From NCBI RefSeq assembly GCF_000238095.2, contig NZ_JH815225.1, positions 1,121,863-1,185,862 of the forward strand: a stretch of DNA of 64,000 bases, in the 5' to 3' direction. Of the stretch, positions 9,103-60,717 are shown piece by piece. Both the position numbers and the translations under genes were made by a program. Each line of letters begins with the position of its first letter. Position 1 is the first letter of the stretch. This stretch comes from Peptoanaerobacter stomatis (GTDB lineage Bacteria; Bacillota; Clostridia; Peptostreptococcales; Filifactoraceae). The notes beneath the pieces were generated by a model. That model saw only the letters and a list, made by a program, of their open reading frames with translations. It was not told where the DNA came from and ran no database searches.

Positions 9103-9330
9103 TAACAATTCTCCTAATTTAACCAAATGAAAATATAAAATCTAATATTGTGTTTTAAAAAATCAGTATATATTTAAAATCAAATATATAGGCTATACTG
9201 ACAATTATTTTAAACAACAATCTAAAAAATATTTTAATATTAACTAATTACAGCTCATAATATAAATCTTAAAAATAATCTGTTGTAAGTTTAAATATCT
9301 CCCTTATTTCAGTAAGATATGTTTAATATT

Positions 9331-44340: not shown

Positions 44341-45744
44341 TTATCTTATGCTGAAAGAATCGTGCATTACGCATCTTCTTATTCTGCAAAATGATTTTGC
44401 TGAAGTTATACCTTCTCCTGTAGGTCCTGCTATAGTAAATGTTGTATGTCCTTCTCCACCTACTCCTATTCCTGAATATGAAGGCGCATTTTTAACAAAT
44501 ATAGTCGCTTCTAATTTTTTTGCCATTTTAGACAATTTTTCTACATTTTTGGAGTGCATTATTGCTGTATGTCTATTTCCATGTTCAGCTTCATATGCAT
44601 ATTCTATTGCTATATCTACATCTGATACGCTTACTATAGGTAATATGGGCATAAGCATTTCTTCTTGTACTAAATGATGATTTTTAGATGTTCTGCATAT
44701 TATTAATCTTATACTGTCATCTACATATATTCCTAATTTTTCTAATATATATTTTGCTGATTTACCTACAAACTCTGTCTTAGGTTTTCCATTTTCTTGT
44801 GATACCAATTTGTCCAATTTTTCTATCATATCTTGTGATACTATTTCATATGCTCCGTTTTTCTTCATATGATAAATCAACATATCAGATATGCTGTCTA
44901 CTGCAAATACTTCTTTTTCAGCTATACAAGGCACGTTGTTGTCAAAGCTTGCACCTGATACTATATCAATAGCGGCTTTTTCTATATCCGCAGTTTCATC
45001 CACTACTACAGGAGGATTTCCTGCACCTGCTCCTATAGCTTTTTTTCCTGATGACAAAACAGTATTTACGATAAATGGACCTCCTGTCGCTACAAGCAAC
45101 TTAACCTTAGGATTGCTCATCATAAGATTGGTATTTTCTATTGAAGGTTCTTTTACCATTGTTATCATATTTCTCGGTGCACCGTATTCTTCCAAAGCCT
45201 TGTTCATCATCTTAACCAATTTTATAGAAACATTTTTTGCTCTTGGATGAGGACTGAATACTACAGTATTTCCTCCAACTATCATAGATATTGAATTATT
45301 TATAAGAGTTTCTGTAGGATTCGTAGTCGGTGTTATTGAGCCTATGACTCCAAACGGACAATATTCTTCAATCATAAGTCCATCTTTTCCTGTTATGGCT
45401 CTTGTTGTCAAATCTTCCATTCCCGGAGTTTTTTCAGCTGCCACTTTATTTTTTAATATCTTATCTTCAAATCTTCCTATTTCAGTTTCCTCTACCGCAT
45501 CTCTTGAAATCATCTCAAGATTATCTTTTTTGAGCACTTCTCTTCTTATAACATTTGCAAATTCATTTCTTTGCTGTACACTGCACTCAAATAATTTTCT
45601 TTGTGCTGTTTCACTCGCATTTATTGCTGCTTCCATATCATCAAAAATACCATAATTATATTCATTGCTTAATATATTTGATGATTCCAATTTCATTTCA
45701 CTTAACACTTGTCTTACGACATCTTGTAACAGTTCTGCGTTCAT
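44341..45744 (-). CDS. pduP: CoA-acylating aldehyde dehydrogenase with encapsulation peptide (PduP/EutE-like)
   Basis: 467 residues. The amphipathic N-terminus MNAELLQDVVRQVLSEMK followed by a linker matches the targeting peptides that dock enzymes in microcompartments. Dehydrogenase body: PFGVIGSITPTTNPTETLINN, GAGNPPVVVDETAD, catalytic Cys in ASFDNNVPCIAEKE, and FTIAGPTGEGITSAKSF. Converts propionaldehyde or acetaldehyde with NAD and CoA to acyl-CoA. Last gene of the leftward BMC arm, 12 bases after pduL. Confidence 0.92.
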   Translation of the reverse strand: MNAELLQDVVRQVLSEMKLESSNILSNEYNYGIFDDMEAAINASETAQRKLFECSVQQRNEFANVIRREVLKKDNLEMISRDAVEETEIGRFEDKILKNKVAAEKTPGMEDLTTRAITGKDGLMIEEYCPFGVIGSITPTTNPTETLINNSISMIVGGNTVVFSPHPRAKNVSIKLVKMMNKALEEYGAPRNMITMVKEPSIENTNLMMSNPKVKLLVATGGPFIVNTVLSSGKKAIGAGAGNPPVVVDETADIEKAAIDIVSGASFDNNVPCIAEKEVFAVDSISDMLIYHMKKNGAYEIVSQDMIEKLDKLVSQENGKPKTEFVGKSAKYILEKLGIYVDDSIRLIICRTSKNHHLVQEEMLMPILPIVSVSDVDIAIEYAYEAEHGNRHTAIMHSKNVEKLSKMAKKLEATIFVKNAPSYSGIGVGGEGHTTFTIAGPTGEGITSAKSFCRIRRCVMHDSFSIR

Positions 45745-45756
45745 TTCTCCCTCCTA

Positions 45757-46410
45757 TTACTGAACAATACTGTTTTTATTTTTTAAAACCGCAAAATCTC
45801 CGTTTTTTATAGATACAGAATTTGCCTCGTCTGTATCCAAATGCATTTCCAACCTGTATGAGTCAGACACTCTTACAAGCACCTTTGACATAATTGCTCT
45901 TCTTTGACCGAATATCTCCACATCTACAAAATCACCGTCTTTTACATTCATAAGCCTTGCTTCTTTCGGTGTCATATGAATATGTCTTAACGCAACTATT
46001 GTGCCTTCATCAACACTTATCTTTCCTTTCGGTCCTATTATCTCAAGTCCCGGAGTTCCTTCCAATTTTCCTGATTCTTTTATAGGAGCTTTCACACCTA
46101 ACCTGAAAGAGTCTGTAAGCGATATTTCAACTTGAGTTTTATTTCTTATAGGTCCTAATATTCTTACATTTTCAAATTCACCTTTTGAACCTCTTATTGT
46201 TACAAGCTCATTTGAAGCAAATTGCCCCGGTTGTTTTAAATCAGATTTCTTTGTGAGCTCATATCCTTCTCCGAACAGAGTCTCCAAGTCCTTTTTACAA
46301 AGATGAACGTGTCTGTTGGAAACTCCAATCGGGATTTTATAATTTTCTATTTGATCAAGTTTTTCTTGAACACGTTTACAAACCAAAGTTATAAATTCCT
46401 CTTGATTCAT
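45757..46410 (-). CDS. pduL: Microcompartment phosphotransacylase PduL
   Basis: 217 residues. The N-terminal 20 residues (MNQEEFITLVCKRVQEKL) look like an encapsulation peptide. Zinc-site histidines are in IPIGVSNRHVHLC and in VALRHIHMTP. Two beta-barrel repeats: KQPGQFASNE...LGPIRNKTQVEISLTDSFRLG and the later DGDFVDVEI. Converts acyl-CoA and phosphate to acyl-phosphate and recycles CoA inside the shell. Confidence 0.95.
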   Translation of the reverse strand: MNQEEFITLVCKRVQEKLDQIENYKIPIGVSNRHVHLCKKDLETLFGEGYELTKKSDLKQPGQFASNELVTIRGSKGEFENVRILGPIRNKTQVEISLTDSFRLGVKAPIKESGKLEGTPGLEIIGPKGKISVDEGTIVALRHIHMTPKEARLMNVKDGDFVDVEIFGQRRAIMSKVLVRVSDSYRLEMHLDTDEANSVSIKNGDFAVLKNKNSIVQ

Positions 46411-46509
46411 AAAATATTCCTCTTTCTACAAATTATATAAATCAAAAAATTTAAAATAATATAATTTATTTTTATTTCTTGATGTTATTAATTTAAATTC
46501 TCTAAAATT

Positions 46510-47385
46510 TTATCCGAACAGTAAATTTACTATTGATACTGATATCATTATAACTGTTGCAGGAGGATCTATATATGTATCGCAATTACTGTTGAATATA
46601 TTTCCTGCAGCTTGCCATGCCACTGCATTTACAGCTCCTACAATAGCTGCTATCAAAATATTCCCTGTAAGCACATATGCAACTGCCGCAGGATATGTTA
46701 TATGATGCGTAACCGGAATACTGAACCCTGTTTGTAAAAATACCAATGAACTTGCACTTATTCCGAAACATATTAACGGAAAACTTGCCAATTGTTCTTT
46801 CGGCATACCTGACAACATCATTGCATTTCCAACCACACTTATTACTATTCCGAATGTCGCCCCTAAAAACGCGTGCATTAATAACCCTAAATCAGGATTA
46901 GGCAACCATGTTCTTTTTACATCCAAACTGCATGTTCCCACCGGTCCAGTTTTTCCTACTAAAAGTCTGCAAACCATCAATGTACAAAATACTGCTGCTC
47001 CAGGTGCGTCGGTTTTTAAGAAACTTAATTTTGTTGTAAATAATGTAAAAAATAAAAATCCTATTACTGCAAATACTCCGCCGGCAATAAGAGTAGGTAT
47101 ATCATTAAGTTCATATAAAGGTTTTAATACATCTTGTGCAGAAGACAGTTTTTTTCTTTTTATAGCTGCGAATCCTGCCGCTGCCGCTCCCGCAGTAAAA
47201 GCTATATGAGGTCCCCAAAACAATCCGAATGTAATATGACCGATAGAAAATTCATTTATACCTGACATAGACAAAATTCCGCCTGATAATGCCAACAGAC
47301 CTGTAATTATAAATGACGGTATTGCTCCGAATGCTGTTCCTACTACACCGCCACAAAATGCTCCAACTAATAACATAATATCCAT
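46510..47385 (-). CDS. Multipass membrane protein of unknown function in BMC locus
   Basis: 291 residues from ATG at 47385 (GGAGAA five bases upstream, an earlier in-frame ATG at 47403 is possible). About eight to nine hydrophobic helices rich in Gly/Ala. Conserved-looking polar spots: GKTGPVGTCSLDVKRTWLPNPDLGLLMH, FSIPVTHHITYPAA and a C-terminal NSNCDTYIDPPATV. I do not recognise a named transporter family. It is not an aquaporin (no NPA). Being 100 bases before pduL, it may carry the diol, an acid product or another small solute. That is inference from position. Confidence 0.75.
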   Translation of the reverse strand: MDIMLLVGAFCGGVVGTAFGAIPSFIITGLLALSGGILSMSGINEFSIGHITFGLFWGPHIAFTAGAAAAGFAAIKRKKLSSAQDVLKPLYELNDIPTLIAGGVFAVIGFLFFTLFTTKLSFLKTDAPGAAVFCTLMVCRLLVGKTGPVGTCSLDVKRTWLPNPDLGLLMHAFLGATFGIVISVVGNAMMLSGMPKEQLASFPLICFGISASSLVFLQTGFSIPVTHHITYPAAVAYVLTGNILIAAIVGAVNAVAWQAAGNIFNSNCDTYIDPPATVIMISVSIVNLLFG

Positions 47386-47608
47386 AAGTCTTCTCCATTT
47401 CATAAATTTTAAAATTATTAAACTTTTTTGTGTGAACTATTGCTTAATAAAAGTAGACATATGGTGTTAATAATACAATTACCTAATAAAACCATAAATG
47501 ATTTTATTTTTTATACATTTTCACAAAAATGAAAAATATGCTCATAAATAATAGAAATTTTTTTATTTATGATTAATATGCAAATTTTTTCTCTTATCAG
47601 TCAAATAA

Positions 47609-48775
47609 CTATATATAATTTTGTATATAAGTTTTTACTTGATTTTTTAATTTGGAAACTTTATCGGTTCTCTCCCATGCAAATCTTTCTTCCATTCTTC
47701 CGAAATGTCCATAAGATGCAAGTTCAAGATATATAGGAGTTCTCATATTAAAATTGTTTATTGCTCCGTCTATTGTAAAATCAAATGTGTTTTTTATTGC
47801 ATATTCTATACATTCTTTTGATACTCTTTCAGTTCCGAATGTATTTATATATACTGTTTGAGCCCCTTCTTTACCTATTACGAAAGACATCTCTACTTCA
47901 CATTTCTTACTAAGTCCTGCCGCAACTACATTTTTTGCTATATACCTTGCCAGATAAGCAGCTGATCTGTCGGCTTTTGAAGGGTCTTTTCCTGAAAATG
48001 CTCCTCCTCCATGTCTTGCTATACCTCCATAAGTATCAACTATTATCTTTCTGCCCGTAAGACCGCTGTCAGCTGACGGACCTCCTTTTGCAAAAAATCC
48101 TGTGGCATTTATATGAATTTTTGTATCAGATTTCAACAAGTTCTTATCTATTTCTTCAAATATTACTTTTTCTATTATTTCATATCTGAGTTTGCTCAAA
48201 TCTATATCTCTATGATGTTGTGCGGCTATTACTATGCTGTCTATTTTTTGAACATTTCCGTTTTCATCATATACTGCGCTTACTTGTGTTTTTCCGTCAG
48301 GATAAAGTCCTTGTATTATCCCTTGTTTCCTTACATATGCTAGTCTTCGCGCCAATTTATGTGCTGTATGAATTGTATATGGCATATAGTTTTGCGTTTC
48401 ATCTGTCGCATATCCGTATACCATACCTTGATCACCTGCACAAATTTTTTCTTTTATAACTCCCATAGCTATATCTTCTGACTGTTTTATTATATTAGTC
48501 ATTATTATAGCCTTATCAGGATTAAAACCGCTTTCTTCATCTGTATAACCTATTTTTTTTATGGTATTTTTAGCTACTTCTTTCACATCGACTTTTGCAT
48601 TGGAAGTTATTTCACCTCCTATAAACAAAGCTCCGTTAGTTATGAAACTTTCACAAGCTACTCTTGAAAACGGATCCTGCTCCAAATGTGCATCAAGTAT
48701 AGCATCGGAAATTTGATCGCAAACTTTGTCAGGATGCCCTTCTGTCACTGATTCAGAAGTCAATACTTTATACAT
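47609..48775 (-). CDS. metK: S-adenosylmethionine synthetase
   Basis: 388 residues, the standard length. Starts KVLTSESVTEGHPDKVCDQISDAILD; ATP loop GAGDQGMVYGYATDET; GGPSADSGLTGRKIIVDTYGG; GGGAFSGKDPSKADRSAAY. Makes SAM from Met and ATP. It lies in the middle of the leftward BMC arm between the response regulator and the unknown membrane protein, 138 and 220 bases from its neighbours, so it may have its own promoter. SAM is the co-substrate of the glycyl radical activase at 56578-57495. No SAM riboswitch was recognised upstream. Confidence 0.97.
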   Translation of the reverse strand: MYKVLTSESVTEGHPDKVCDQISDAILDAHLEQDPFSRVACESFITNGALFIGGEITSNAKVDVKEVAKNTIKKIGYTDEESGFNPDKAIIMTNIIKQSEDIAMGVIKEKICAGDQGMVYGYATDETQNYMPYTIHTAHKLARRLAYVRKQGIIQGLYPDGKTQVSAVYDENGNVQKIDSIVIAAQHHRDIDLSKLRYEIIEKVIFEEIDKNLLKSDTKIHINATGFFAKGGPSADSGLTGRKIIVDTYGGIARHGGGAFSGKDPSKADRSAAYLARYIAKNVVAAGLSKKCEVEMSFVIGKEGAQTVYINTFGTERVSKECIEYAIKNTFDFTIDGAINNFNMRTPIYLELASYGHFGRMEERFAWERTDKVSKLKNQVKTYIQNYI

Positions 48776-48913: not shown

Positions 48914-49942
48914 TCAAGGATTCTCAGACATACAATTTTCTTTTATTGCATTATAATTTCTAAACCTTGATACAGTAGTTTTTTCGTATTTCTTAAACAC
49001 TTTACAAAAATAGCTGAATTCATTGTATCCGACTTTAAAAAATATCTCTGATATGTTCATTCTTGACAAGCATATGTATTCTTTCGCTATATTTATCTTT
49101 TTTATATGTATATAGTTCATAACTGTCATATTAAATTCTTTTTTAAAAATTCTGCTTAAATATCCTTGAGATACATTGCAATTTTTAACTATATCATTTA
49201 GAGATATGTTATTTACTATATTTTTTTCTATATATGAAAAAATATCTTTTAATATAGGATACCTGTCCTCACTTCTTTTTATAAATATATATTCATATAC
49301 TTTAAAAAGCCAAATGAATATCAATCTTTCGTCTTTTAAATACATGTCTTGAAGCGGAAAAATCTGCTGTAATTCTATTTTATTCTTCTTTACCGTAGGC
49401 AAGAACGAATATAATATGACTGAAATAAATCTGTACATATTATCTTTAAAATCACTTTGTGAACAATTATTATATATTTCTTTCGCTATTATGGATATAT
49501 TGTCATATAGTCCTGAAAAGTCATTTTCTTCTATAAATTTATTTACATTGACGCTTACTGATATTTCTTCTTTTTGTTTCTTGTCTTTAAAATTACTTAA
49601 TATTGTCTTAATTACAGTGCTGTCTGTAGGTTTTATAACATATTGTTTGATTTTGTTTTTTAATGCTTTTTGTGCAAGCTCAAAACTGTTATAACTTGAC
49701 ACTATATATATGCTTATATCAGGATTTATATCCAATATCTCTTTGCTTGCCACTATGCCGTCTTTTATCGGCATCATTATATCCATAAAAACTATATCTA
49801 CTTTTTCATTTTTACATATATCTAAAGCCTCTTGACCGTTTTTAGCAAAAAATTTGACTTCAAAATTTTCTACTGATGAAACTATCTTTGCCATTGCTTG
49901 TCTAACCAGTTCCTCATCATCTACTATAAGAACTTTATACAT
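48914..49942 (-). CDS. YesN/AraC-type response regulator of BMC locus
   Basis: 342 residues. Receiver domain with the acidic pair in LIVDDEELVRQAM, phosphoacceptor Asp in VDIVFMDIMMPIKDG, and Lys in KQYVIKPTDS. Middle region of about 110 residues without a recognised fold. C-terminal AraC double helix-turn-helix (NNISLNDIVKNCNVSQGYLSRIFKKEFN, NISEIFFKVGYNEFSYFCKVFKKY). Overlaps the sensor gene by 8 bases. Likely activates the BMC operon, perhaps at the TTTCAGAC repeats near 60385-60414. Confidence 0.93.
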   Translation of the reverse strand: MYKVLIVDDEELVRQAMAKIVSSVENFEVKFFAKNGQEALDICKNEKVDIVFMDIMMPIKDGIVASKEILDINPDISIYIVSSYNSFELAQKALKNKIKQYVIKPTDSTVIKTILSNFKDKKQKEEISVSVNVNKFIEENDFSGLYDNISIIAKEIYNNCSQSDFKDNMYRFISVILYSFLPTVKKNKIELQQIFPLQDMYLKDERLIFIWLFKVYEYIFIKRSEDRYPILKDIFSYIEKNIVNNISLNDIVKNCNVSQGYLSRIFKKEFNMTVMNYIHIKKINIAKEYICLSRMNISEIFFKVGYNEFSYFCKVFKKYEKTTVSRFRNYNAIKENCMSENP

Positions 49943-51254
49943 AATTTATTCCTTCGTCAAAATTAATCGGATATTTAATCGTGAGTTTTGTACCTATATC
50001 TTCTTGATAATCATATACCGGCTTATATTCTTTACCGAACATATCTGTCAAAGATCTTTTCATATCCCTGACTGATTTTAATATATGTGTCCCTTCATGA
50101 TTTTCTCCATATAATTTATATGTTTTCTCCAATTCACTTATACTTAGTCCAGGCCCATTATCTTCCATTTTTATAACTATATCGTTTTCTATATTATCTA
50201 TTGATATTTCCAATTTATAATCCGCTTCATTCGTAGTCAAACTATAATACATAGATGCCTGAACAAACGGTAATATTATGGAAAAAGGTATCTTTATATC
50301 TGTTAGATTTTCACTACATTCTATATTGCAATAAATTCTATTTTCGTATCTTAGCTTATTTATGGCTATCAGGTTTTCTATTCTTTGTATCTCATCGCTT
50401 ATTGTATTGGAATTTTTATTTTGCAATTCATTTGTTATGAAATTGGAATACTTTAATATTGCATCATTTGTTTTTGTCGCCCCTTCTATTATTGACAAGT
50501 TCGACAGCATATTAAATATATTTCTGACAAAGAATATATTTGTATATCTGAGTATTGTGTCATACTTGCTCTTTAACAGACTGTTTTTATATTCCAACTC
50601 TTTTATCTTGTCTTCAAGCTCTCCTATCTTATTGAGATTTTTCATTTTATTATGTCCTGATATGAGCTCTTGCTTTGTGAGTTGACTTATTACGAGTTCT
50701 ATCAGCTTTGATATTGATACAAACTCGTTATATGTATACTTTGCACAATCTTTCAAATCTTCTTTATATTTTTGAGATAATATATCCACATCTTCTAAAT
50801 CTTTTCCTGATGCAGACATATTCTTGCTGAGTTTCATAACATAAGGAGGCGCATCGTCACATAATACCTGCCCACCTACAAAACCTCCAAGATACCTGTC
50901 ATTTACTATTATAGGTATTGCCACTTCCAATAAACCGCACGGACAAAAATATATGCTCGTCTGTTTGCTTGTAGCCGCAATTATTGCACCCGAAGCATCC
51001 GACAATTTGCAAATAGGAAGTCTTTCTTTATCTTGTCTCATCTTTTGACAAAATCTTGTAAATTTTGTCTGTTCAGTTACAGGTTCGCCTTTATAATCTA
51101 CCGTAACAAAGGCAAGCCCTGTAACATCTGAAATTATTTTTTGTATTTCTTCAAGATTCTTCTTACCGAATACCGAAATAATATCTATTTGCTCTACGCC
51201 TTGTAAATATTTTTCATTAATAGAAATGTTCGCTGAATTTTTGTTCTCCGCCAT
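49935..51254 (-). CDS. PocR-domain sensor histidine kinase-like protein lacking the H-box His
   Basis: 439 residues, no membrane helix. Residues about 22-195 are a PocR ligand-binding domain (LAFVTVDYKGEPVTEQTKFTRFC, ICKLSDASG, YFCPCGLLEVAIPI, GGFVGGQV), with Cys 69, 82, 104 and 106. A coiled-coil linker follows, then a LytS/YesM-like kinase region. Where that family has INPHFLFNTL this protein has FFVRNIFNML, with Arg 244 in place of the phosphoacceptor His. The N-box (VENA) reads VQAS. The G1 box DNGPGLS is kept. PocR domains sense 1,2-propanediol or related small molecules. The protein may therefore not autophosphorylate in the normal way. Confidence 0.9.
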   Translation of the reverse strand: MAENKNSANISINEKYLQGVEQIDIISVFGKKNLEEIQKIISDVTGLAFVTVDYKGEPVTEQTKFTRFCQKMRQDKERLPICKLSDASGAIIAATSKQTSIYFCPCGLLEVAIPIIVNDRYLGGFVGGQVLCDDAPPYVMKLSKNMSASGKDLEDVDILSQKYKEDLKDCAKYTYNEFVSISKLIELVISQLTKQELISGHNKMKNLNKIGELEDKIKELEYKNSLLKSKYDTILRYTNIFFVRNIFNMLSNLSIIEGATKTNDAILKYSNFITNELQNKNSNTISDEIQRIENLIAINKLRYENRIYCNIECSENLTDIKIPFSIILPFVQASMYYSLTTNEADYKLEISIDNIENDIVIKMEDNGPGLSISELEKTYKLYGENHEGTHILKSVRDMKRSLTDMFGKEYKPVYDYQEDIGTKLTIKYPINFDEGINYV

Positions 51255-51300: not shown

Positions 51301-52419
51301 TTAATAGATTTTTTCCAAAATTGCAACTATTTCTTTTTCCGAAATACTTTTAGGATTATATTTCAAGCAATTATCTTTGAGTGCATTTTTTGCCAAAACG
51401 GTTTTATTTTTATCCCAAAGCTCTTTGTCTATATTGCACTTGGATATTTTATCAGGCATATCCATAAGTTTCATCATTACACTTATGTATTCTTTTAATA
51501 CGCTAAATGCCATATTATCATCCAAATTATCTCCTGCCATACCTGTTCTTCTTGCAAATTTTATATACCTTTGCTTAGCAGCTTTATCTGTTGCATTAAA
51601 GTCTATGACTTCTTTAAGCAATATTGCATTTGCAAGTCCGTGCGGTATGTGATAAAATCCTCCGATTTGATGTGCAATGCTGTGATTAAGTCCCACACCT
51701 GCTATATTAAACGCTGTTCCTGCCAAATTCGATGCTATATGCACCTTTTCTCTGGCAATATCATTTTTATCGTTTGAATAGCTTTCATACAGATATTTTA
51801 TCAATAAATCTCCTGATTTTTCGGCAAGCGCATCTGAATATTCATTTGCTCCTTTTGCCACATATGCTTCTATTATATGTGTGAGTACATCTATACCTGT
51901 ATTGGCTATTATTGATTTTGGAAGTGACATGGTAAATTCTGCATCCAATATTGCCACATCCGGTAATATATCGTCTGATTCAATTAAATGTTTCGTCTGT
52001 TTTTGTTCATCTGTCAAAACCGTTACTGATGTTACCTCCGAACCTGTTCCGCTCGTTGTAGGTATGGCTATAAATTCTATATCATGCTCAATCCTCTTGG
52101 ATTCCCTTAAAAAATATATCACACCTTTTGCAGTATCTATTGCTGAACCTCCGCCAAATCCTATTATATGCGTTGCATCGAGATCAACCATGGTTTTTAT
52201 TGCATCAGATACGATAGATAAAGACGGATCAGGTTTTACCCTGTCAAAAACTTCTATTTTATTTGTATAATCAAGTTTTTGAGTAATTTTTTTTATCATA
52301 GAATTTTTTACAAGAAATTCATCCGATACTATCAAAATTTTAGATTTTTTTATATTTTTAAGTATGTCTAAGGCATCTTTTCCCATACATATCTTTGTAT
52401 GCTGATTAATTATATTCAT
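51301..52419 (-). CDS. pduQ: Iron-containing alcohol dehydrogenase (PduQ/EutG-like)
   Basis: 372 residues from ATG at 52419; a GTG two codons earlier is the alternative. Family III alcohol dehydrogenase: NAD loop IIGFGGGSAIDTAKG, PTTSGTGSEVT, metal-binding DVLTHIIEAYV and the His pair in GLNHSIAHQIGGFYHIPHGLANAILL. Reduces the pathway aldehyde to alcohol, regenerating NAD for PduP. Sits 26 bases after the aldehyde dehydrogenase gene and 46 before the sensor gene. Confidence 0.92.
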   Translation of the reverse strand: MNIINQHTKICMGKDALDILKNIKKSKILIVSDEFLVKNSMIKKITQKLDYTNKIEVFDRVKPDPSLSIVSDAIKTMVDLDATHIIGFGGGSAIDTAKGVIYFLRESKRIEHDIEFIAIPTTSGTGSEVTSVTVLTDEQKQTKHLIESDDILPDVAILDAEFTMSLPKSIIANTGIDVLTHIIEAYVAKGANEYSDALAEKSGDLLIKYLYESYSNDKNDIAREKVHIASNLAGTAFNIAGVGLNHSIAHQIGGFYHIPHGLANAILLKEVIDFNATDKAAKQRYIKFARRTGMAGDNLDDNMAFSVLKEYISVMMKLMDMPDKISKCNIDKELWDKNKTVLAKNALKDNCLKYNPKSISEKEIVAILEKIY

Positions 52420-52445
52420 CTTCACACTATCTTTCTTAAAATATA

Positions 52446-53765
52446 TTATTTTATAGAAAATTTATCTACAAGTGCTATTCTTCTTTTTCTTGCAAAATCT
52501 TTCGCAGTAATCGCTCCTTCGCCTGTAACATTGGCTATTGTAAAGCTTGTACCGCCAACTCCGCATATGCCTATTCCATCTAATGATGAACCGTTTTTGA
52601 TAAATATTGATGTTTTAAGAACTCTCTGAGCTAAATTTAATCTGTCTATTCTTGAAGAATGTATTCCTGCCGTATGTTTTAAATTTTGTTCTACCGATAG
52701 CGCAACGTCTAAAGCTTCATCAAAATCTTTTACTCTCACCACGCTTATAAGAGGTAATAACAATTCTTGTGTAACAAACGGATGTATCTTCACTGTTTCA
52801 ACAGCTATTAACTTATAACTCCTATTTGTAACTATGCCTGCTTTTTCCAATATTAAATCTGCATTCTTTCCGCCTAAAAGCTTATTTGGAAGCAAGTCTT
52901 CAGTGAGCAGTAATTTTGAAAGTTGCAGCATTTGTTTTACATCTCTTATATAAAATACATCATTTTTTTTGAGTTCTTCTTCAAATTCCTCGCATACTTT
53001 ATCAACAATTATTATATTTTTTTCTCCTACGCAAGTTATGTTATTATCAAAACTTGCGCCTTTTGATATACAATATGCAGCTTTTTGAATATCAGCCGTT
53101 TCATCTACTATAAATGTAGGGTTTGCAGCTCCTCCTGAAATTACTTTTTTACCGCAGGCTATAGCCGCTCTTGCATTTTCAGAACCACCTGTTGATACTA
53201 TCAAATCCACATCAGGATGTGTCATTATTTCTTTTATATATTTGAGCATACATTCATTCAAGGTTACTACTATATTTTCTATACCGCACACATCAAATAT
53301 AACTTTATTTATTATATCCGTTAAATATTTTGAAACCTCCATCGCTCTTGGATGAGGGCAATTTATCACACTGTTTCCTGCAGATAATAAACCAATCGTG
53401 TTGTTAATCATGGTTTCGCATGGATTCGTACTCGGATGTATTGCACAAGCTACTCCATAAGCTGTATATTCAAAAAACGTCATACCTCCGTCGCCGGTTT
53501 TTACTTTTGTTTCCAAATCTTCCACTCCCGGTGTCTGCTCTATTGCAAGTCTTATCTTTACAGCTTTATCCTCGACTTTTCCCATGCAGGTTTCTTCTTG
53601 TGACATCTTGGCGAGTTCGTCTATATGTTTTGAAAGCTCTTGTCTTAAATTCGCTATTATGTCTTGTCTATCTTTCATACAAAGCTTTGAATATATATAT
53701 AGTGCGCTTTTCGCCGCTTGTACAGTTTCATTTACAGTTGAAAATACTCCTCTCAATTCCTTCAT
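52446..53765 (-). CDS. Second CoA-acylating aldehyde dehydrogenase, no encapsulation peptide
   Basis: 439 residues from ATG at 53765 (AGGAG five bases upstream; an earlier frame start at 53783 lies inside pduN). Shares the EutE/PduP fold with the 44341-45744 protein: AYGVACAIHPSTNPCETMINN, GGAANPTFIVDETADIQ, catalytic Cys in ASFDNNITCVGEKN, and SFTIANVTGEGAITAKDFARKRR. It begins directly at the catalytic domain (KELRGVFSTVNETVQAA) with no amphipathic targeting helix. Overlaps pduN-stop region. It may be co-encapsulated by another route, work in the cytosol, or prefer another aldehyde. Confidence 0.9.
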   Translation of the reverse strand: MKELRGVFSTVNETVQAAKSALYIYSKLCMKDRQDIIANLRQELSKHIDELAKMSQEETCMGKVEDKAVKIRLAIEQTPGVEDLETKVKTGDGGMTFFEYTAYGVACAIHPSTNPCETMINNTIGLLSAGNSVINCPHPRAMEVSKYLTDIINKVIFDVCGIENIVVTLNECMLKYIKEIMTHPDVDLIVSTGGSENARAAIACGKKVISGGAANPTFIVDETADIQKAAYCISKGASFDNNITCVGEKNIIIVDKVCEEFEEELKKNDVFYIRDVKQMLQLSKLLLTEDLLPNKLLGGKNADLILEKAGIVTNRSYKLIAVETVKIHPFVTQELLLPLISVVRVKDFDEALDVALSVEQNLKHTAGIHSSRIDRLNLAQRVLKTSIFIKNGSSLDGIGICGVGGTSFTIANVTGEGAITAKDFARKRRIALVDKFSIK

Positions 53766-53775
53766 ATTTTCTCCT

Positions 53776-54039
53776 TTAGACAACTATTTCGTCTATTATC
53801 CCTATAATCGCCATATCGATTAATGAGCTTTTTCTTTGCTCCTCTACTCTTACAGAAGAGCCGGATCCTACTAATACATACTCACCTATTCCGGCACCGA
53901 CATAATCCGCTGCCACTTTTTGACATCCGTCTTCTGTTAAGTCAGCTCTCATAGGTTGAATTACCATTAATTTATATCCTGTTAAAGTATCATTTTTTTT
54001 AGTGGCGACAACATTTCCAACTACTTTTGCTATAAGCAT
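53776..54039 (-). CDS. pduN: Pentameric BMC vertex protein (EutN/CcmL/PduN family)
   Basis: 87 residues from ATG at 54039 with GGAGG six bases upstream. N-terminal MLIAKVVGNVVATKKNDTLTGYKLMVIQP and later VGAGIGEYVLVGSGSSVR are typical of the family, as is the C-terminal IIGIIDEIVV. Pentamers close the twelve vertices of the shell. Confidence 0.95.
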   Translation of the reverse strand: MLIAKVVGNVVATKKNDTLTGYKLMVIQPMRADLTEDGCQKVAADYVGAGIGEYVLVGSGSSVRVEEQRKSSLIDMAIIGIIDEIVV

Positions 54040-54075
54040 AATCAACCTCCGGCATCAAAACAGATTGTTATTTTT

Positions 54076-54645
54076 TTATTTTTTTTTCTTATTTTTTTTG
54101 TTATTTGTATTTTTCAAAGTTGATTTTGTATTTTCCTCTTTATCATCGGATGTTTCTTCTATTTCTATTTTTTCAATTTTCTCTTCAATTATTTCTTCTG
54201 TTTCTTCATCTTTGACGGTTGTATCTGAAGTTTCTTCTTTTTCTGTTTCCAATTCTTCTTTTTCAACCATTTCCTCTTTTATAGTAGTTTCTTCTATTTT
54301 TTCTTCGATTATTTCTACAGATTTTACATCTTCTTTTTCTTTATCATCTTCTATTTTTTCTTCTGATGATATGTCTTTTAAAAAAGCGTCATAGATAAAA
54401 TCATTAGGTCGTGGTATAACCGAAGAACTTATATATTTACCATATGCCATTGCCTCTTGTTTCGCCGCACTTATAGCTGAATTTATAGCTCCTACATCTC
54501 CGACAGCTTTTATTGTCATATATCCAAGTCCCTTTGTATTTTCTATCTCATATATTCGTATATTTGCTGTTTTAGCCATCGTATCTGCGATGAGTATCCC
54601 TGTTGAAAGACCTTTAATTTCAATCATCCCAAGCGCTTGTTTCAA
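54076..54645 (-). CDS. Hexameric BMC shell protein with long acidic tail and Lys-rich end
   Basis: 189 residues starting at TTG 54645, which directly abuts the stop of the preceding gene (TAGTTG); RBS GGTGG. Residues 1-90 are a BMC domain (QALGMIEIKGLSTGILIADTMAKTANI, AVGDVGAINSAISAAKQEA, SSSVIPRPNDFIYDAFL). Residues about 92-189 are a low-complexity tail dominated by Glu, Lys, Thr and Asp with repeats of IEEKIEE type, finishing KNTNNKKNKKKK. The first AUG would be Met 7, inside the first BMC strand, so TTG is preferred. The tail may recruit cargo or another protein. No domain is recognised in it. Confidence 0.88.
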   Translation of the reverse strand: MKQALGMIEIKGLSTGILIADTMAKTANIRIYEIENTKGLGYMTIKAVGDVGAINSAISAAKQEAMAYGKYISSSVIPRPNDFIYDAFLKDISSEEKIEDDKEKEDVKSVEIIEEKIEETTIKEEMVEKEELETEKEETSDTTVKDEETEEIIEEKIEKIEIEETSDDKEENTKSTLKNTNNKKNKKKK

Positions 54646-55185
54646 CTACATCACCACCTTCAGGTTTTCAATTATTTCTATATCGAATTCAAAAATTTCT
54701 TTATAGTAATTAAGTATCTTCTGTTTATATTTTTCAGGCTCTTTGCCTGTTAATTTTTCTATTCCGTATTTCAAGATGTATATTTTAACCCCGTTTTCAA
54801 AGCATTTCTTTATCAACTCAGTTGTTTTGGTATCACTTAAACAACTTGCTATATGTATAACTTCATCTCTTTTCATAACAGGAAATATAATCACATCTTC
54901 TTCTTCACACAAAAATTCCTCTAATTTCATCACTTTTGTGAATGTATAGAGCTTTTCAATTTTATTTTTATACACATTACAGTCTTCATTTAACAAAACA
55001 GCATATACATTCTTATCCTTTATCTTATTAAGCTCTTCAAATAAAAAATAATATCTGTTGTCCCAAACTTCGTTAAACACTATATATGTATTTTTTTCTT
55101 TTACTTCTTTTTTTTCTTGTTCTTCTAAAACTCTTTTTATAACTTTTTTTATAATAAGTTCTAATTCATCTTTTTTATTCGGCAT
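54646..55185 (-). CDS. Flavoprotein-like BMC-associated protein, function unknown
   Basis: 179 residues from ATG at 55185, preceded by GGGGG; an ATG at 55197 in frame lacks a site. The N-terminus KKDELELIIKKVIKRVLEEQEKK is a predicted amphipathic helix like an encapsulation peptide. The body alternates strands and helices. The stretch DVIIFPVMKRDEVIHIASCLSD...ELIKKCFENGVKIYILKYGIEKL follows the pattern of the flavoprotein-fold proteins found in ethanolamine and glycyl-radical microcompartment loci. Cofactor and role are unknown. Confidence 0.7.
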   Translation of the reverse strand: MPNKKDELELIIKKVIKRVLEEQEKKEVKEKNTYIVFNEVWDNRYYFLFEELNKIKDKNVYAVLLNEDCNVYKNKIEKLYTFTKVMKLEEFLCEEEDVIIFPVMKRDEVIHIASCLSDTKTTELIKKCFENGVKIYILKYGIEKLTGKEPEKYKQKILNYYKEIFEFDIEIIENLKVVM

Positions 55186-55252
55186 AGCTGCCCCCATTCA
55201 TAAAAATAACTACGATTGGAGTTCAATTTTTAATTTTTACTGTAAATTCACA

Positions 55253-55286
55253 AATATCACCTCCGGCAAAAACCGGAGATGATACC
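55253..55286 (-). other. Intercistronic RNA hairpin behind the pduA-like gene
   Basis: On the minus-strand RNA GGUAUCAUCUCCGG, a 6-base loop and CCGGAGGUGAUAUU form 14 pairs, three of them G-U. The G-U pairs fold only in this strand. No U run follows, so it is not a usual terminator. It starts 23 bases after the stop of the major shell gene and may protect the upstream message from 3-prime exonucleases. Confidence 0.75.
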
Positions 55287-55308
55287 TGCAAAATTATAAT
55301 TTATATAT

Positions 55309-55590
55309 CTATTTTTCAAAATGAGGTATAATTCTTTCTGTATCCATATGTGGTCTTGGTATAACGTGAGTAGATACAACTTCGCCTATTGCTGCTGCTG
55401 AAGCTGCTCCTGCATCAACTGCCGCTTTAACAGCTCCTACATCTCCTCTTACCATAACTGTTACAAGTCCTGAACCTATTTTTTCATATCCTACTAAATT
55501 TACATTAGCTGCTTTTACCATAGCATCCGCTGCTTCTATCGCTCCTACCAAACCTTTTGTTTCAACCATTCCTAAAGCATCTGATATCAT
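55309..55590 (-). CDS. pduA: Hexameric BMC shell protein (PduA/EutM-like)
   Basis: 93 residues, one BMC domain: [38 protein letters not shown], then [19 protein letters not shown] and [17 protein letters not shown]. Pore loop KIGSG is the usual small-solute pore. Probably the main facet protein. GGAGG lies 5 bases before the ATG. Gaps of about 200 bases upstream and a stable hairpin downstream set it apart for separate dosage. Confidence 0.96.
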
Positions 55591-55788
55591 AATGAACCTC
55601 CATATTATATGTTTTTTATTTTTTTATATTTTCAGTTTTTTATCTATAATTTTTTATATATTTTTCATAATATGGATTTGATTTTATAACATGTATGAAA
55701 TTTTTTTCTTAATTATTACTATATGTTATGTTCAAATCTATATATGAGTTTTAAGTATCATTAAATTTTAAAATTTTTATTTATTATT

Positions 55789-56565
55789 TTATATATAAGG
55801 TGTTGTTGTTGATTTAGGAACATCTCCTAATGTACCGAGTAGTTTTACACCTACATCTATTGCAGCTTTAACTGCTTGTCTTACTGCTCCTGAATCTCCT
55901 GTAAATGTTAATATAACCTCGTTTGAGTAACTTGTTCCACCGGATGGTGATGAATAGCTGACTACTTCAACATTAGCCGCTTTTACTGCCACATCCGCTA
56001 ATACTGTACCTATAGCTGCCGGTCCTGCGCAAACCATACCGAATGATTTTCCAAGCGGAGTACCGAATGTTTTTTCCAAACAATAGCTTGCTCTTGCTGT
56101 ATATTGGAATTCAAGATGGCCGGCATCATTAGCATATACATCTCCAAAATATTTTGGAAGAGTTTCTAAAGCTATTTCTACTGCACGTCTTGCATCAGAT
56201 ACATCTTCCGCTCCGATATATATCAAGCTTCCGTGTCCTGCTCCGCCTTTTGTATCTCTTGGCAATTCCACTGATATAACTTCTGTATTAGTTGCTTTTA
56301 CCGCATCGTCTACAGCCATTATTTGTGGACCTGCTCCTATTCTTCCACCTATTATACCTATTGATTTAAATTTACCTAATTTCATAGTTTCTGTAAGTAA
56401 AGGATCTACGCTTGCTATAACAAGACCTATTGTATCTCCTATTGCTGTTCCTACAAACTCTGTTACTCCTATATTAGCTTTTTTGCTCTTATTAGCTTCT
56501 TTATTATCTATTCCAAGTTCTTGTGAAACTTGTCCCATTACTCTTTCTAGCAATTCCTTGTCCAT
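55789..56565 (-). CDS. pduB: Trimeric BMC-T shell protein (PduB-like)
   Basis: 258 residues with two BMC domains: TEFVGTAIGDTIGLVIASVDPLL...LGKFKSIGIIGGRIGAGPQ and FGTPLGKSFGMVCAGPAAIGTVLADVAVKAANVE. N-terminal extension MDKELLERVMGQVSQELG is amphipathic, like the PduB peptide that links shell and enzyme core. Gated central pore expected. Twelve bases after the activase gene. Confidence 0.95.
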   Translation of the reverse strand: MDKELLERVMGQVSQELGIDNKEANKSKKANIGVTEFVGTAIGDTIGLVIASVDPLLTETMKLGKFKSIGIIGGRIGAGPQIMAVDDAVKATNTEVISVELPRDTKGGAGHGSLIYIGAEDVSDARRAVEIALETLPKYFGDVYANDAGHLEFQYTARASYCLEKTFGTPLGKSFGMVCAGPAAIGTVLADVAVKAANVEVVSYSSPSGGTSYSNEVILTFTGDSGAVRQAVKAAIDVGVKLLGTLGDVPKSTTTPYI

Positions 56566-56577
56566 ATTGACCTCCTA

Positions 56578-57495
56578 TTAACCACCTATAACACACTTAA
56601 AACCGTTATTTTCTACAATGGCTTTAAATTTTTCAACAAATTCTTCACTTAATTCCTCTGTACCATTCATCTCATAATTTCTGCCTAAAAGCTTATATTT
56701 ATTTTCACCATATCTATGGTATGGCAACAAATGTACTTTTCTTATATTAGGTAGAGTTTTTATAAACTTAGCAATATCTGTTATCTCTTTTTCACTTGCA
56801 TTAAAATTCGGTATAACAGGTATTCTTATAACGGTATCAGCAAGTTCTTGTATTATCTTTGCATTTTTTTTAATAAGTTCATTTCTAACTCCTGTGTATG
56901 CCAAGTGTACATCCGAGTCAAAGCTTTTTATGTCAAGTAAAACAAGATCTACATGAGGTATTACTTCTCTTATCACTTCTTCGTTCGCATAACCTTCAGT
57001 TTCTAAAGCTGTATGCCAACCTTGCGCTTTGCAGGCTTTAAACAATTCTTTTGCAAAACTGCTTTGTGTAAGTGCCTCTCCACCTGATAGTGTTACTCCT
57101 CCGCCTGATCTGTAATATTGTGTGGCATCTTTTTTTACTTCTTTTATAACTTCCTCTACGCTCATTTCTTTGCCCTTCATTATCAGTGCTCCTGCAGGAC
57201 AAACTAAAGCACATTCACCACAAGCTGTACATTTTTCTTTGTTTACAATATATTCTTTTTTAGGTTCTATGGCGTTTACTTTACATACCTTGACACATTT
57301 TCCACAGCCTATACACAAGTCTCTACTAAACATAAGTTCAGGTTTTGCCTTTTGAGATTCAGGATTACTGCACCATCTGCATCTCAGCGGACATCCTTTA
57401 AGGAAGATTATCGTTCTTATTCCCGGTCCATCGTGTATAGAAAATCTTTGTATATCAAACACAATGCCTTTTGCACCATAATCAACAGTTTCCAT
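56578..57495 (-). CDS. Glycyl radical enzyme activase (radical SAM)
   Basis: 305 residues. Radical SAM cluster in FLKGCPLRCRWCSNPES (CxxxCxxC), preceded by the activase signature SIHDGPGIRT. An inserted ferredoxin-like region carries two 4Fe-4S motifs (CIGCGKCVKVC and CTACGECALVCPAG), then SGGEAL. It uses SAM to form the 5-deoxyadenosyl radical and take the hydrogen from the glycine of the lyase at 57683-60226. The 187-base gap from the lyase gene holds the strong hairpin at 57603-57641. Confidence 0.95.
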   Translation of the reverse strand: METVDYGAKGIVFDIQRFSIHDGPGIRTIIFLKGCPLRCRWCSNPESQKAKPELMFSRDLCIGCGKCVKVCKVNAIEPKKEYIVNKEKCTACGECALVCPAGALIMKGKEMSVEEVIKEVKKDATQYYRSGGGVTLSGGEALTQSSFAKELFKACKAQGWHTALETEGYANEEVIREVIPHVDLVLLDIKSFDSDVHLAYTGVRNELIKKNAKIIQELADTVIRIPVIPNFNASEKEITDIAKFIKTLPNIRKVHLLPYHRYGENKYKLLGRNYEMNGTEELSEEFVEKFKAIVENNGFKCVIGG

Positions 57496-57682: not shown

Positions 57683-60226
57683 TTACATATCGTGTTCTGT
57701 TCTGTTGATGATATCATCTTGAACTTCTTTTGCAAGTGTAACGAAGTGTGCACTGTATCCTGCAACTCTTACTATCAAGTCTTGATTATCTTCAGGATGT
57801 TCTTGTGCATTCAAAAGAGTTTGCTTGTCAACTACGTTAAATTGAACGTGGCTACCTTTATGGTCGAAATAGCTTTTTACTATTGAAACGAAGTTTTTAA
57901 GTCCTTGCTCTCCTTTAACTGCTCCAGGTGTGAATTTTTGATTATATAGTGTTCCGTTTGATGCTTGAGCGTGGTCTAATTTTGAAACTGAATTTGATGC
58001 AGCTGTAGGGCCTGTAACGTCTTTTCCTTGTCTTGGAGATACACCGTCAGCAAGCGGTTCATGTGCCAATCTTCCATCAGGTAAAGCAAGAACGTCTTTA
58101 CCGAACAATACGTTTGCAGAAACAGGATATATACCAGCTTGGAATTGTCCGCCTCTCGGATTCTTATATTTATCTACTTCATTACAATATATTTTACCGC
58201 ATCTTACTGCTATTTCATCAACTTCTTCTATATCATTTCCAAAACTGTCTGTGTTTTGAAGTATTTTTCTAATTGTAGTAAATTTACCTGTTTGTTCACC
58301 GCAGCATACCGGTCTGCTTGGATATTGATTTGTCAATTTGCTTTCTAATGTAGCTATATCTATTGAACCTGTACTTGCAAGTATTTTCTTAACAGCTTCA
58401 TATACATCTGCTTCACTCATAGCTCCTGTAACAGGTTTATTGCAAGGAGGTTTTATACAATCGCTTACTCCAAAGTTTGCTTCAAGAGCTTCTTTTAATT
58501 CTTTTAAAGTTATCTTCTTATCATCAAATACGTTTTTCTTAATTGCATATAATGAGTCACCAGAGTCTGCCACTCCAAATGCTTGAGGTCCTGTAAAGTT
58601 GTAAATTGCTCCACCTTCTTGAGCTGATTTACCTACTTTTATACAATCATCTACCATTGCAGACATAAATGGTAGAGGAGCTCTTTCCATATGCGCATAG
58701 TCAACGGCATTATCTGCCATAGCTAAATGTCTTACAAAGTATTCCATTTGTTTTTGATATGCATCGAATATTTTTTCCATGCTGTCAAGTTCTTCCAACT
58801 CTCCTGTTTTTGGTCCAAGTTGTTTTCCGTTGCATCTTCCGTTATTTAATGTTATTTCTAAAACTTTTGCTATATTAAAGAACGCTGCATCATGCCATCC
58901 TTCTGTTCTGTGTCCTGCTTGCGGTTCAACGCAACCTATTATACTGTAGTCTCTTGCATCTTTTAAAGCTACGCCTCTTGCTACGAGTGCAAGTATTATA
59001 ACTTCGTCATTATAAAATGCCGGTACACCATATCCTAATCTTGATACTTCACAAGCTCTGTATAAAAATTCCATAGGAGAATTTTGGTGAACACGAACTG
59101 AGAATGAAGGAGCAGGTAGTTTAACGTGTGCAACTGCTTCCATGCACATATAAGATACTTCGTTAGTTGCATCTTGACCTTCTTCATTTTGTCCACCTAC
59201 GCAAAGGTTTTGGAATACTGCGTATCCTGCAAATGCTTGTGCAGATACTTCATCACGAGTTTTGTTTACATCGTTTAATTTTACCCAGATACAATCTACA
59301 AGTTCTTGAGCAAATTTTCTATCTATATTATCATCTTTCAAATATGGATACATATATTGGTCAAATCTTCCAGGAGATATTGAGTGACCGTTAGATTCTA
59401 TTTGTACCATTATTTGTATGAACCAGAAAGATTGGCAAGCTTCGTAGAAGTTTCTTGCACCATATTCAGGTACTCTATCGCAGTTAGCTGCTATTTGTAA
59501 TAATTCTTGTTTTCTTACAGGATTAAGCTCTACATTTGCAAGTTCTCTTGCCTTGTCAGCATATCTATGTGCAAATATTATAGCTGCATTATAAGATATT
59601 ATAACTGCGTTATAGAATTGGCATTTTCTAATTGATTCCGGATCGTCCATATCCAATTTGTTCATTGCAGTTATAGTTTCTTCCAATACTCCTCTGAAAC
59701 CTTTTTTCAATATTTTGCCGTAGTCAACGTTAACGTGACCTACTCCACCGTAGAAATAGTTTCCTACTGTGAATATACCGTTTGATATACAATCTTTAGT
59801 GCTTGGACTCATATATGAATCTGCAAGAGCACTTGTAGTTTTTCCATCCCAATATTTAAATGCTTCATGAAGATCTTTTTTAACTTTATCACTTATTTCA
59901 AATGGATCTGCCATTCTTGAATGCATTGTATCAAATTCTTTTTCAACCCAATCATAAGAGAATTCCGGACATATTTCTGTAGATCTTGGGTTTATTGTTA
60001 TTGAGCCTACTACAAGTTCATCTTCTCTTATAGTTACTGGTAGTTGAGTAAATATTTTTTCAACTACTTTTGCTCTTCTCATTATTGCAGGAAGACCTTC
60101 TGTTTCCTTGTATGCTTCAGTTGCAAGACAAGCTCTTTCTGATTCAACTTGAGGCATTGCATTGATAATTACTTTTCTTAATCTTTCAACTCTTTCTGTT
60201 GGTTTGCTAAAACCTTTTTCTAACAT
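57683..60226 (-). CDS. Glycyl radical diol dehydratase (1,2-propanediol/glycerol type)
   Basis: 847 residues. Glycyl radical loop RVAGYSAHF with Gly 823, thiyl Cys 432 and Glu 434 in IIGCVEPQ, His 164 (GGVGHVNVDYG), His 281 and Ser 282 (SNGHSISPGRFDQYMYPY), Asp 446 (GWHDAAFF). These match the positions of B12-independent glycerol dehydratase (H164, H281, S282, C433, E435, D447) almost exactly. Choline TMA-lyase has Tyr and YQWT-type sequence at these places. Compared with the 787-residue glycerol enzyme, about 60 residues are inserted at about 600-660 (IKPPCNKP...VCCGEQTG), a feature I recall from the microcompartment propanediol enzymes. Converts diol to aldehyde. PduP, PduL and PduQ downstream process the product. 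Strict substrate choice needs assay. Confidence 0.88.
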   Translation of the reverse strand: MLEKGFSKPTERVERLRKVIINAMPQVESERACLATEAYKETEGLPAIMRRAKVVEKIFTQLPVTIREDELVVGSITINPRSTEICPEFSYDWVEKEFDTMHSRMADPFEISDKVKKDLHEAFKYWDGKTTSALADSYMSPSTKDCISNGIFTVGNYFYGGVGHVNVDYGKILKKGFRGVLEETITAMNKLDMDDPESIRKCQFYNAVIISYNAAIIFAHRYADKARELANVELNPVRKQELLQIAANCDRVPEYGARNFYEACQSFWFIQIMVQIESNGHSISPGRFDQYMYPYLKDDNIDRKFAQELVDCIWVKLNDVNKTRDEVSAQAFAGYAVFQNLCVGGQNEEGQDATNEVSYMCMEAVAHVKLPAPSFSVRVHQNSPMEFLYRACEVSRLGYGVPAFYNDEVIILALVARGVALKDARDYSIIGCVEPQAGHRTEGWHDAAFFNIAKVLEITLNNGRCNGKQLGPKTGELEELDSMEKIFDAYQKQMEYFVRHLAMADNAVDYAHMERAPLPFMSAMVDDCIKVGKSAQEGGAIYNFTGPQAFGVADSGDSLYAIKKNVFDDKKITLKELKEALEANFGVSDCIKPPCNKPVTGAMSEADVYEAVKKILASTGSIDIATLESKLTNQYPSRPVCCGEQTGKFTTIRKILQNTDSFGNDIEEVDEIAVRCGKIYCNEVDKYKNPRGGQFQAGIYPVSANVLFGKDVLALPDGRLAHEPLADGVSPRQGKDVTGPTAASNSVSKLDHAQASNGTLYNQKFTPGAVKGEQGLKNFVSIVKSYFDHKGSHVQFNVVDKQTLLNAQEHPEDNQDLIVRVAGYSAHFVTLAKEVQDDIINRTEHDM

Positions 60227-60717
60227 AACTTTTAAACCTCCTTAAATTTAAGTTCGAGCATATGTAATTTTTTGACATATGTTTTTAATACAACATAAAA
60301 TAACTAAGTAATTTTTTAAGCCACTTTTTTCGGCAATCGTTCACATAAATACGATAACATCTTTTCATTTTTATGGTTAACGTTTTTCAGACTTATTAAT
60401 TGTAAATTTCAGACTTTAAATTTTACACAATGTTTACAATTTTTTTTATATGTTATTGAGTTGTTTTTACACGATCTTGTTATTTTACAACATATAGAGC
60501 TATGAATTTAATAAAAAATAAAATTTCATTATATAAAATCTATTTGAAAACTTTTTCATATTTCAGACCAAATCAATGTAAAATTAAAACTTCCTATGAA
60601 AGCATTATTGATTTTATTAATAATAGTTCGTATACTGAAAATGTATATCTAAAAAAACGTTATTTTCATTAAATATTCTAAAAAAATAATTATCATATTT
60701 AATAAGAGGATACCTTT
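60227..60717. promoter_or_regulatory. Divergent regulatory region of the BMC locus
   Basis: 490 bases between the lyase gene (minus) and the pduT-like gene (plus). It holds three copies of TTTCAGAC, an inverted repeat CATATGT / ACATATG (60259-60281) just upstream of the lyase Shine-Dalgarno, and a weak minus-strand promoter (TTAACC, 17 bases, TTATCG around 60380-60352). No ORF is seen. It is the logical place for the response regulator at 48914-49942 to act. Confidence 0.6.
60385..60414 (-). promoter_or_regulatory. Paired direct repeats TTTCAGAC, candidate AraC-type operator
   Basis: TTTCAGACTT occurs at 60385-60394 and 60407-60416, 22 bases apart, that is two helical turns, the spacing of AraC-family direct-repeat sites. 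A third TTTCAGAC is at 60561-60568. The left copy ends four bases from the possible -35 TTAACC of the lyase promoter on the minus strand. Confidence 0.6.

Follow-up and report, generated by a model that had tools for sequence, protein, structure and literature searches.

What can a two-component sensor do for its response regulator once its kinase half has lost the residue that should carry the phosphoryl group? The question is raised by two overlapping genes in the stretch of Peptoanaerobacter stomatis DNA analysed here (64,000 nucleotides, called the window; positions are counted from its first letter). We lean, with rather better than even confidence, towards the reading that in the window the sensor is a ligand-gated pseudo-histidine kinase, which controls its AraC-type regulator by direct contact. 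The features of the pair are as follows:

49935..51254, minus strand: PocR-LytS-type pseudo-histidine kinase, 439 amino acids (open reading frame, Pfam, clade and motif tables)
50667..51170, minus strand: PocR sensory domain, residues 29-196 (Pfam)
49968..50531, minus strand: kinase half made up of degenerate dimerisation (His_kinase) and HATPase domains, with a fold that is predicted to persist (Pfam, AlphaFold, comparison with GanS)
50532..50534, minus strand: codon of Phe241, which aligns with the phosphoacceptor His (ungapped alignment with the NPHFLFN of relatives)
50256..50258, minus strand: codon of Ala333, which aligns with the N-box Asn (comparison with relatives)
48914..49942, minus strand: response regulator with receiver and AraC-type helix-turn-helix, 342 amino acids (open reading frame, Pfam, motif table)

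The 439-residue protein is a PocR-domain sensor by its match to the Pfam PocR model (PF10114, 120.3 bits), and three cysteines of that domain, C69, C82 and C104, are invariant among 46 aligned sequences. Its kinase half scores far lower: His_kinase (PF06580) covers residues 242-307 at 27.5 bits, a weak match above the cut-off of 25.2 whose alignment begins only at profile position 14, and HATPase_c reaches 19.5 bits, under its cut-off of 26.4. When the canonical NPHFLFN is aligned without gaps to the NIFFVRN of the window sensor, N239 and N245 match and the phosphoacceptor His falls opposite Phe241. The original prediction had rightly missed the His in this box but had named Arg 244 as its replacement; Arg244 stands opposite the second Phe of HFLF, and the alignment rules it out as the His position. 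As also predicted, the N-box has no Asn, reading LPFVQASMY against the QPFVENAI of relatives with Ala333 in its place, and the G1 box is still there, as DNGPG (DDGHN in the E. yurii relative). Of the residues expected in a LytS/YesM-type kinase, both the phosphoacceptor His and the N-box Asn are therefore replaced.

Whether close homologues lack the His too was the check put forward with the prediction, and they do: proteins from E. yurii (61% identical) and Peptacetobacter (58% identical) also have Phe at this position. Because relatives show the same change, the loss is neither chance nor the alignment error that could have overturned the prediction. A different conserved His, the other finding that would have told against it, is absent as well; no column of the kinase half has His in more than 11 of the 33 members of the clade described below, which rules out an alternative His as phosphoacceptor. 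Tyr occupies the His position in 11 of the 33 and was considered as a general acceptor, DivL reportedly having a Tyr where the phosphoacceptor His would be, but the window sensor has Phe. Catalytic death of the window sensor is thus strongly supported by the alignments.

The kinase half is nevertheless predicted to retain its fold, as had been expected from the sequence. In an AlphaFold model, residues 241-430 have pLDDT values of 72-95 in 10-residue blocks; over the whole sensor the mean pLDDT is 82 and the pTM 0.50, so that the placement of the domains relative to each other is unsure. The modelled kinase half superposes on the GanS kinase (6swk) with a Z score of 16.9 and an rmsd of 5.4 over 184 residues. 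It is on this comparison and the PF06580 score that we assign the LytS/YesM-type kinase fold (PF06580 plus HATPase_c).

To place the sensor among its relatives we scanned contigs with four relatives, which gave 32 loci, and collected further loci by searching 391 genomes of the class and the families to which G278 (206 genomes) and G253 (299 genomes) belong (L numbers denote sequences or loci, and G numbers genomes, in the comparison set). L001, L003, L013 and L014 were dropped as the same genes as L002, L042, L047 and L061, identity being checked for the last three; L005-L012, in which only the kinase half matched, and L033 and L035-L038, which have PocR without a kinase, were dropped before counting, and matches without an assigned locus were left uncounted. 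Merging 13 rows that were more than 97% identical reduced 92 sensors to 79. With competence defined as the presence of the His, the N-box Asn and the G1 Asp together, 39 of the 79 are competent and 40 are not.

The window sensor belongs to a clade of 33 rows spread across Clostridia, in which the His is kept in two (L051, L077), the N-box Asn in six (L049, L058, L059, L060, L075, L106) and both in none. This scatter suggests a stepwise loss of the catalytic residues, and some members may retain a little activity. Two more dead PocR-kinase lineages (L022, L023, L024, L082 and L102; L039 and L104) lie apart from this clade. On a tree of 77 rows, from which the long branches L004 and L034 were left out, the competent and dead states require three changes; parsimony does not give their direction, and the natural reading of the tree is that they are losses.

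The regulator gene begins within the sensor gene, its start overlapping the sensor stop by 8 nt, and its receiver retains D8, D9, D54, S82 and K104; a true response regulator with an intact Asp had been foreseen at this overlap. The coupling is general, the distance from sensor stop to regulator start being -29 to +9 nt (by a heuristic start call) in 31 of the 32 main-clade loci measured; the exception is L069, whose frames are broken. At L031, where the regulator with the top score in the stretch was taken, this regulator and the sensor do not stand in their customary order, and four receivers whose state was unreadable were left out of the counts (L022, L068, L096, L099).

Beside competent kinases, all 37 receivers keep the acidic pair, the phospho-Asp, the Ser/Thr and the Lys. 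Beside dead kinases 25 of 38 are intact and 13 lack a key residue, a difference with a Fisher p of 7e-5 when kinship is ignored. On the sensor tree receiver state changes six times, always in rows with a dead kinase; these rows account for 46% of the branch length, for a rough probability of 0.46^6 = 0.01. A strict test on independent pairs has three pairs only, too few to reach significance. Within the window's clade all five residues are kept in 24 of the 32 receivers with a readable site. The clearest matched pairs of dead kinase and dead receiver, judged by these residues, appear to be those of Peptoniphilus (L047, L048, L052, L057, L070), where the acidic pair is Ser-Asn, and Anaerococcus (L067), where it is Asn-Glu; L052 and L067 have Glu at the phospho-Asp position besides. 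Milder cases include L062 and L075, each with a single residue changed. In the third dead lineage (loci L158 and L159, sensors L039 and L104) the receivers lack the Ser/Thr, and that beside L104 also lacks the Asp. At L156, in the one-contig genome G278, the regulator beside the dead sensor L022 appears in two pieces, through a frameshift or as a pseudogene.

The sensor and regulator genes lie within an operon of microcompartment genes:

57683..60226, minus strand: glycyl radical enzyme, probable 1,2-propanediol dehydratase, the signature enzyme (alignment with 5i2a, TIGR01774)
56578..57495, minus strand: glycyl radical enzyme activase (TIGR02494)
53776..56565, minus strand: shell genes, PduB-like, two BMC-H-like and BMC-P-like (NCBIfam)
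52446..53783, minus strand: first aldehyde dehydrogenase (PRK15398)
51301..52425, minus strand: gene of the iron alcohol dehydrogenase family, next to the sensor gene on its upstream side (no match reaches the cut-off of its model)
47609..48775, minus strand: S-adenosylmethionine synthetase (MetK), a GRM3 accessory gene (profile match)
44341..47403, minus strand: 297-residue protein, PduL-type phosphate propanoyltransferase and second aldehyde dehydrogenase (profile matches, the 297-residue protein having none)

The glycyl radical enzyme aligns with the diol dehydratase 5i2a in a single stretch, 10-845; the alignments with 9rco and the glycerol dehydratase 1r8w have higher scores but are each broken into two stretches. 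A diol-dehydratase-type enzyme, an activase, shell genes, an aldehyde dehydrogenase, PduL, S-adenosylmethionine synthetase and a signalling pair are thus all present, which identifies the locus as GRM3 following the available text of PMC4207490; the peptidase, flavoprotein, EutJ and acetate kinase also named there lie outside the comparison. Three further genes of the locus may be recorded. Among the shell genes, 54646-55197 (minus strand) encodes a 183-residue protein with no NCBIfam match, relatives of which, many of them low-scoring, are encoded at the corresponding position of 30 of 31 clade loci with long flanks. The hydrophobic 297-residue protein (46510-47403, minus strand), also with no NCBIfam match, is encoded close to PduL in some clade members and is a transporter candidate, and a divergent PduT-like shell protein is encoded across a putative control region of 490 bp (60718-61257, plus strand).

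Microcompartment genes accompany the sensor in the window and in 30 of the 31 clade loci with long flanks, a count that takes in the near-copies L056, L063 and L064; of these 31 loci, 20 have the glycyl radical enzyme, five have the activase only, where the stretch ends, and six have neither. At L060, a clade member with a regulator, no microcompartment genes were matched within its 21-kb stretch. At all seven loci of the two remaining dead lineages the sensor adjoins a glycyl radical enzyme and its activase, and no microcompartment genes were matched within the stretches of those seven; this layout resembles that of a B12-independent glycerol dehydratase operon. The GRM3 locus of C. beijerinckii runs MetK, response regulator, 'histidine kinase, LytS', propanol dehydrogenase (PMC6384099), the same order as in the window; its regulator and kinase are reported to rise by 9.16 and 9.42 log2 units on rhamnose relative to glucose at 3 h (PMC6384099). 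A genome of the Clostridium family, G411 (L161), has the same gene order, and its sensor, L077, keeps the His and has Tyr for the N-box Asn.

Neither direction of this association is exclusive. That all GRM3-like loci have dead sensors is ruled out by the competent sensors L027-L029 (loci L166-L168), near which a glycyl radical enzyme is found and, in two of three, shell genes. The arrangement of these loci resembles the GRM3 table for C. ljungdahlii (PMC12016505), and the induction of that locus by propanediol is for this reason no evidence for the dead-sensor type. Linkage to a glycyl radical enzyme is likewise not peculiar to dead sensors, since the competent L080, L083 and L095 are linked to one too (L154, L155, L160).

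Upstream of the dehydratase gene lies a possible target of the regulator:

60385..60416, minus strand: candidate operator, direct repeat AAGTCTGAAA N12 AAGTCTGAAA

The repeat is a perfect one of 10 bp, with its copies 22 bp apart. Among 18 upstream regions a script finds it in exact form only in the window; E. yurii has an imperfect pair at the equivalent place, by eye and by alignment, and a second pair further upstream, by eye. Searching the window with up to two mismatches, with a pattern derived from this very site, gave no other match (0.01 expected), and a reversed control pattern, run against the complete genome at the same tolerance, gave one match too.

From these observations, we propose that the PocR domain would bind a small molecule, likeliest 1,2-propanediol or a related diol, and that the long helix and the helical-bundle region would relay the change by contact to the co-translated receiver-AraC regulator. 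The sensor, catalytically dead and probably soluble, would make no phosphohistidine from ATP. The regulator, which may act at the 22-bp-spaced repeats, would then activate the propanediol microcompartment operon of GRM3 type. We favour contact because ATP chemistry is lost while the fold and the partner are kept, and because receiver residues are lost only beside dead kinases. The chemically intact receivers of the window and most of the clade count against pure contact, under which they would be unneeded, and on their account phosphate from elsewhere, such as acyl phosphates, may assist there. In Peptoniphilus and Anaerococcus, whose receivers also lack the acidic pair, the pathway is most likely phosphate-free. 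Whether, more broadly, phosphotransfer has been shed altogether, with kinase chemistry lost first, on at least three occasions and beside glycyl-radical dehydratase genes, and receiver chemistry afterwards, is a nearly even call on which we stop a little short of assent.

The reading that best survives beside direct contact is that the dead sensor merely gates, and that phosphorylation of Asp54 by acetyl-phosphate, propionyl-phosphate or another donor is the actual switch. This we regard as a real but rather unlikely possibility. The intact active sites of the window receiver and the 24 clade receivers would be explained by it, the PduL-type phosphate propanoyltransferase is encoded in the operon itself, and there is a precedent in MaeKR, found in Lactobacillus casei and other Lactobacillales, whose receiver Asp is required in vivo (PMC5457438), a point which also counts against pure contact signalling. 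The receivers of Peptoniphilus, Anaerococcus and some other members are, however, broken with the pair kept, and phosphorylation looks dispensable there. Like the window pair, MaeKR joins a sensor that throughout its clade does not autophosphorylate to the regulator of a catabolic operon; MaeK of L. casei has no working ATP-binding domain, yet deletion of that degenerate domain blocks growth on malate, and an allosteric action has been proposed (PMC5457438). Unlike the window sensor, which is PocR plus PF06580 and so no DcuS/CitA-type member of that group, MaeK is a malate sensor of the citrate/DcuS family, and the available text on MaeKR describes no pseudo-receiver stage (PMC5457438). Phosphate might also come by cross-talk from kinases of other families, the window genome having 18 HATPase matches of all kinds. 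One HATPase protein, at C1:1517872, could be such a source; no receiver was matched near it, and the window regulator is, compared by eye, among the receivers without another kinase nearby.

HisKA phosphatases use an Asn or Thr four residues after the His. The window sensor retains N245 at that distance, and the sensor might accordingly be a phosphatase that holds the regulator off until the ligand binds. We consider this improbable: the Asn is kept in only 14 of 33 clade members, the activity would have little purpose with receivers that have lost the acidic pair, as in Peptoniphilus and Anaerococcus, and a 2025 review argues from HisKA and HisKA_3 frequencies against such a role for pseudo-kinases in general (PMC12632262).

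Less probable still is that the sensor serves as half of a heterodimer with, or a docking partner of, another LytS-type kinase that supplies the phosphate. Histidine kinases usually dimerise, and ten clade-bearing genomes of Clostridium or Lachnospiraceae type have 4-18 PF06580 matches each, the clade sensor included. But in the window genome the sensor is the only match, which rules out a partner of its own family there; E. yurii (G008) likewise has a single PF06580 protein, identical to L042, and Peptoniphilus G216 has no scoring match. Of the three roles suggested for the sensor in the original prediction, a ligand-responsive scaffold hence fits best, partnership with a kinase of the same family is disfavoured and that of phosphatase is weak. 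In ten clade-bearing genomes, 87 of the 88 PF06580 matches other than the clade's own keep the His (86 by strict motif, and L226 by eye, as THF). The sole exception, L227, is a PocR sensor too and falls in a second dead lineage; Asn stands where the His should be, Tyr replaces the N-box Asn, and this sensor was excluded from the sensor and receiver counts. At its locus (L228 in G421, 8984-11230), beside a glycyl radical enzyme and activase, the receiver has Ser at the phospho-Asp position. HisKA and HisKA_3 domains lack the His in 0.9% and 0.3% of cases (PMC12632262); the LytS-family domain is absent from the families for which the available text of that review gives such rates.

Selection has maintained the sensor. 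By a hand-coded Nei-Gojobori method on close pairs, dN/dS is at most 0.41 in the PocR, DHp and CA domains wherever it is defined (12 main-clade pairs and one second-lineage pair; 33 of 36 main-clade values are defined, three being lost to saturation), and the maximum of 0.41 rests on a dS of 0.10. The regulator domains have mostly low values, the middle region reaching 0.99 in one pair at a dS of 0.02. Judged by these ratios the kinase half is under purifying selection, and the sensor thereby combines kinase homology, lost catalytic residues and maintenance under selection, the marks of a pseudo-histidine kinase. Mean pairwise identity in the clade (32 rows) is 0.64 for PocR and 0.35 for DHp, against 0.46 and 0.54 among competent sensors (37 rows), with L069, L004 and L034 left out; the competent set is more diverse, so that the ratio outweighs the values. 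Constraint in the clade has, to judge from this ratio, shifted toward the sensor domain. That the pair is merely decaying and no longer functional is the least probable reading of all. In its favour, catalytic motifs vary freely, the DHp and CA domains are less alike than in competent kinases, and the frames of one clade record (L069) are broken. Against it, reading frames stay open and gene order is maintained across many genera, sensor-domain dN/dS is low, and similarity in the PocR domain exceeds that among competent relatives.

DivL of Caulobacter belongs to another kinase family than the window sensor. Its kinase fold too has been repurposed away from canonical output, but DivL reads the phosphorylation state of a regulator (PMC4211667; PDB 4q20), where the window sensor would read a small molecule. 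DesK can activate DesR by surface contact, as we propose here, although DesK, unlike the window sensor, is a working kinase (cited in PMC5457438). The PocR protein of Salmonella joins a PocR domain to an AraC-type helix-turn-helix for propanediol genes (mentioned in PMC7593272); it is one protein without receiver or kinase part, and the window has the two ends split over a dead-kinase pair. PocR-domain kinases with regulators, as in the window, have been described at microcompartment loci (PMC4207490), and lost catalytic residues go unmentioned in the available text of that work. Our literature search, thin on subscription journals, found no description of PocR/LytS pseudo-kinases in such loci. 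A pseudo-histidine kinase with its regulator is a known kind of system; what appears to be new is the PocR/LytS variant, the fact that it recurs and its matched dead pairs, and pairs of dead kinase and dead receiver go beyond the MaeKR precedent. The 2025 review calls the switching of pseudo-receivers a mystery and counts two of 20 described bacterial examples as non-orphan (PMC12632262). Here a single operon unites the sensor, the regulator, the likely ligand class and the regulated target, and both competent relatives and sensors at many stages of loss are at hand for comparison, which makes phosphate-free two-component signalling directly testable. For the many GRM3 propanediol microcompartment loci annotated with a 'two-component system', a phosphorelay should not be assumed.

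Elsewhere in the window, two very large proteins (5386-9126 and 22247-26971, both minus strand) have signal-like starts and similar C-termini. Both end in an LVKTGNEFPE-type motif followed by a basic tail, and they are probable cell-wall adhesins.
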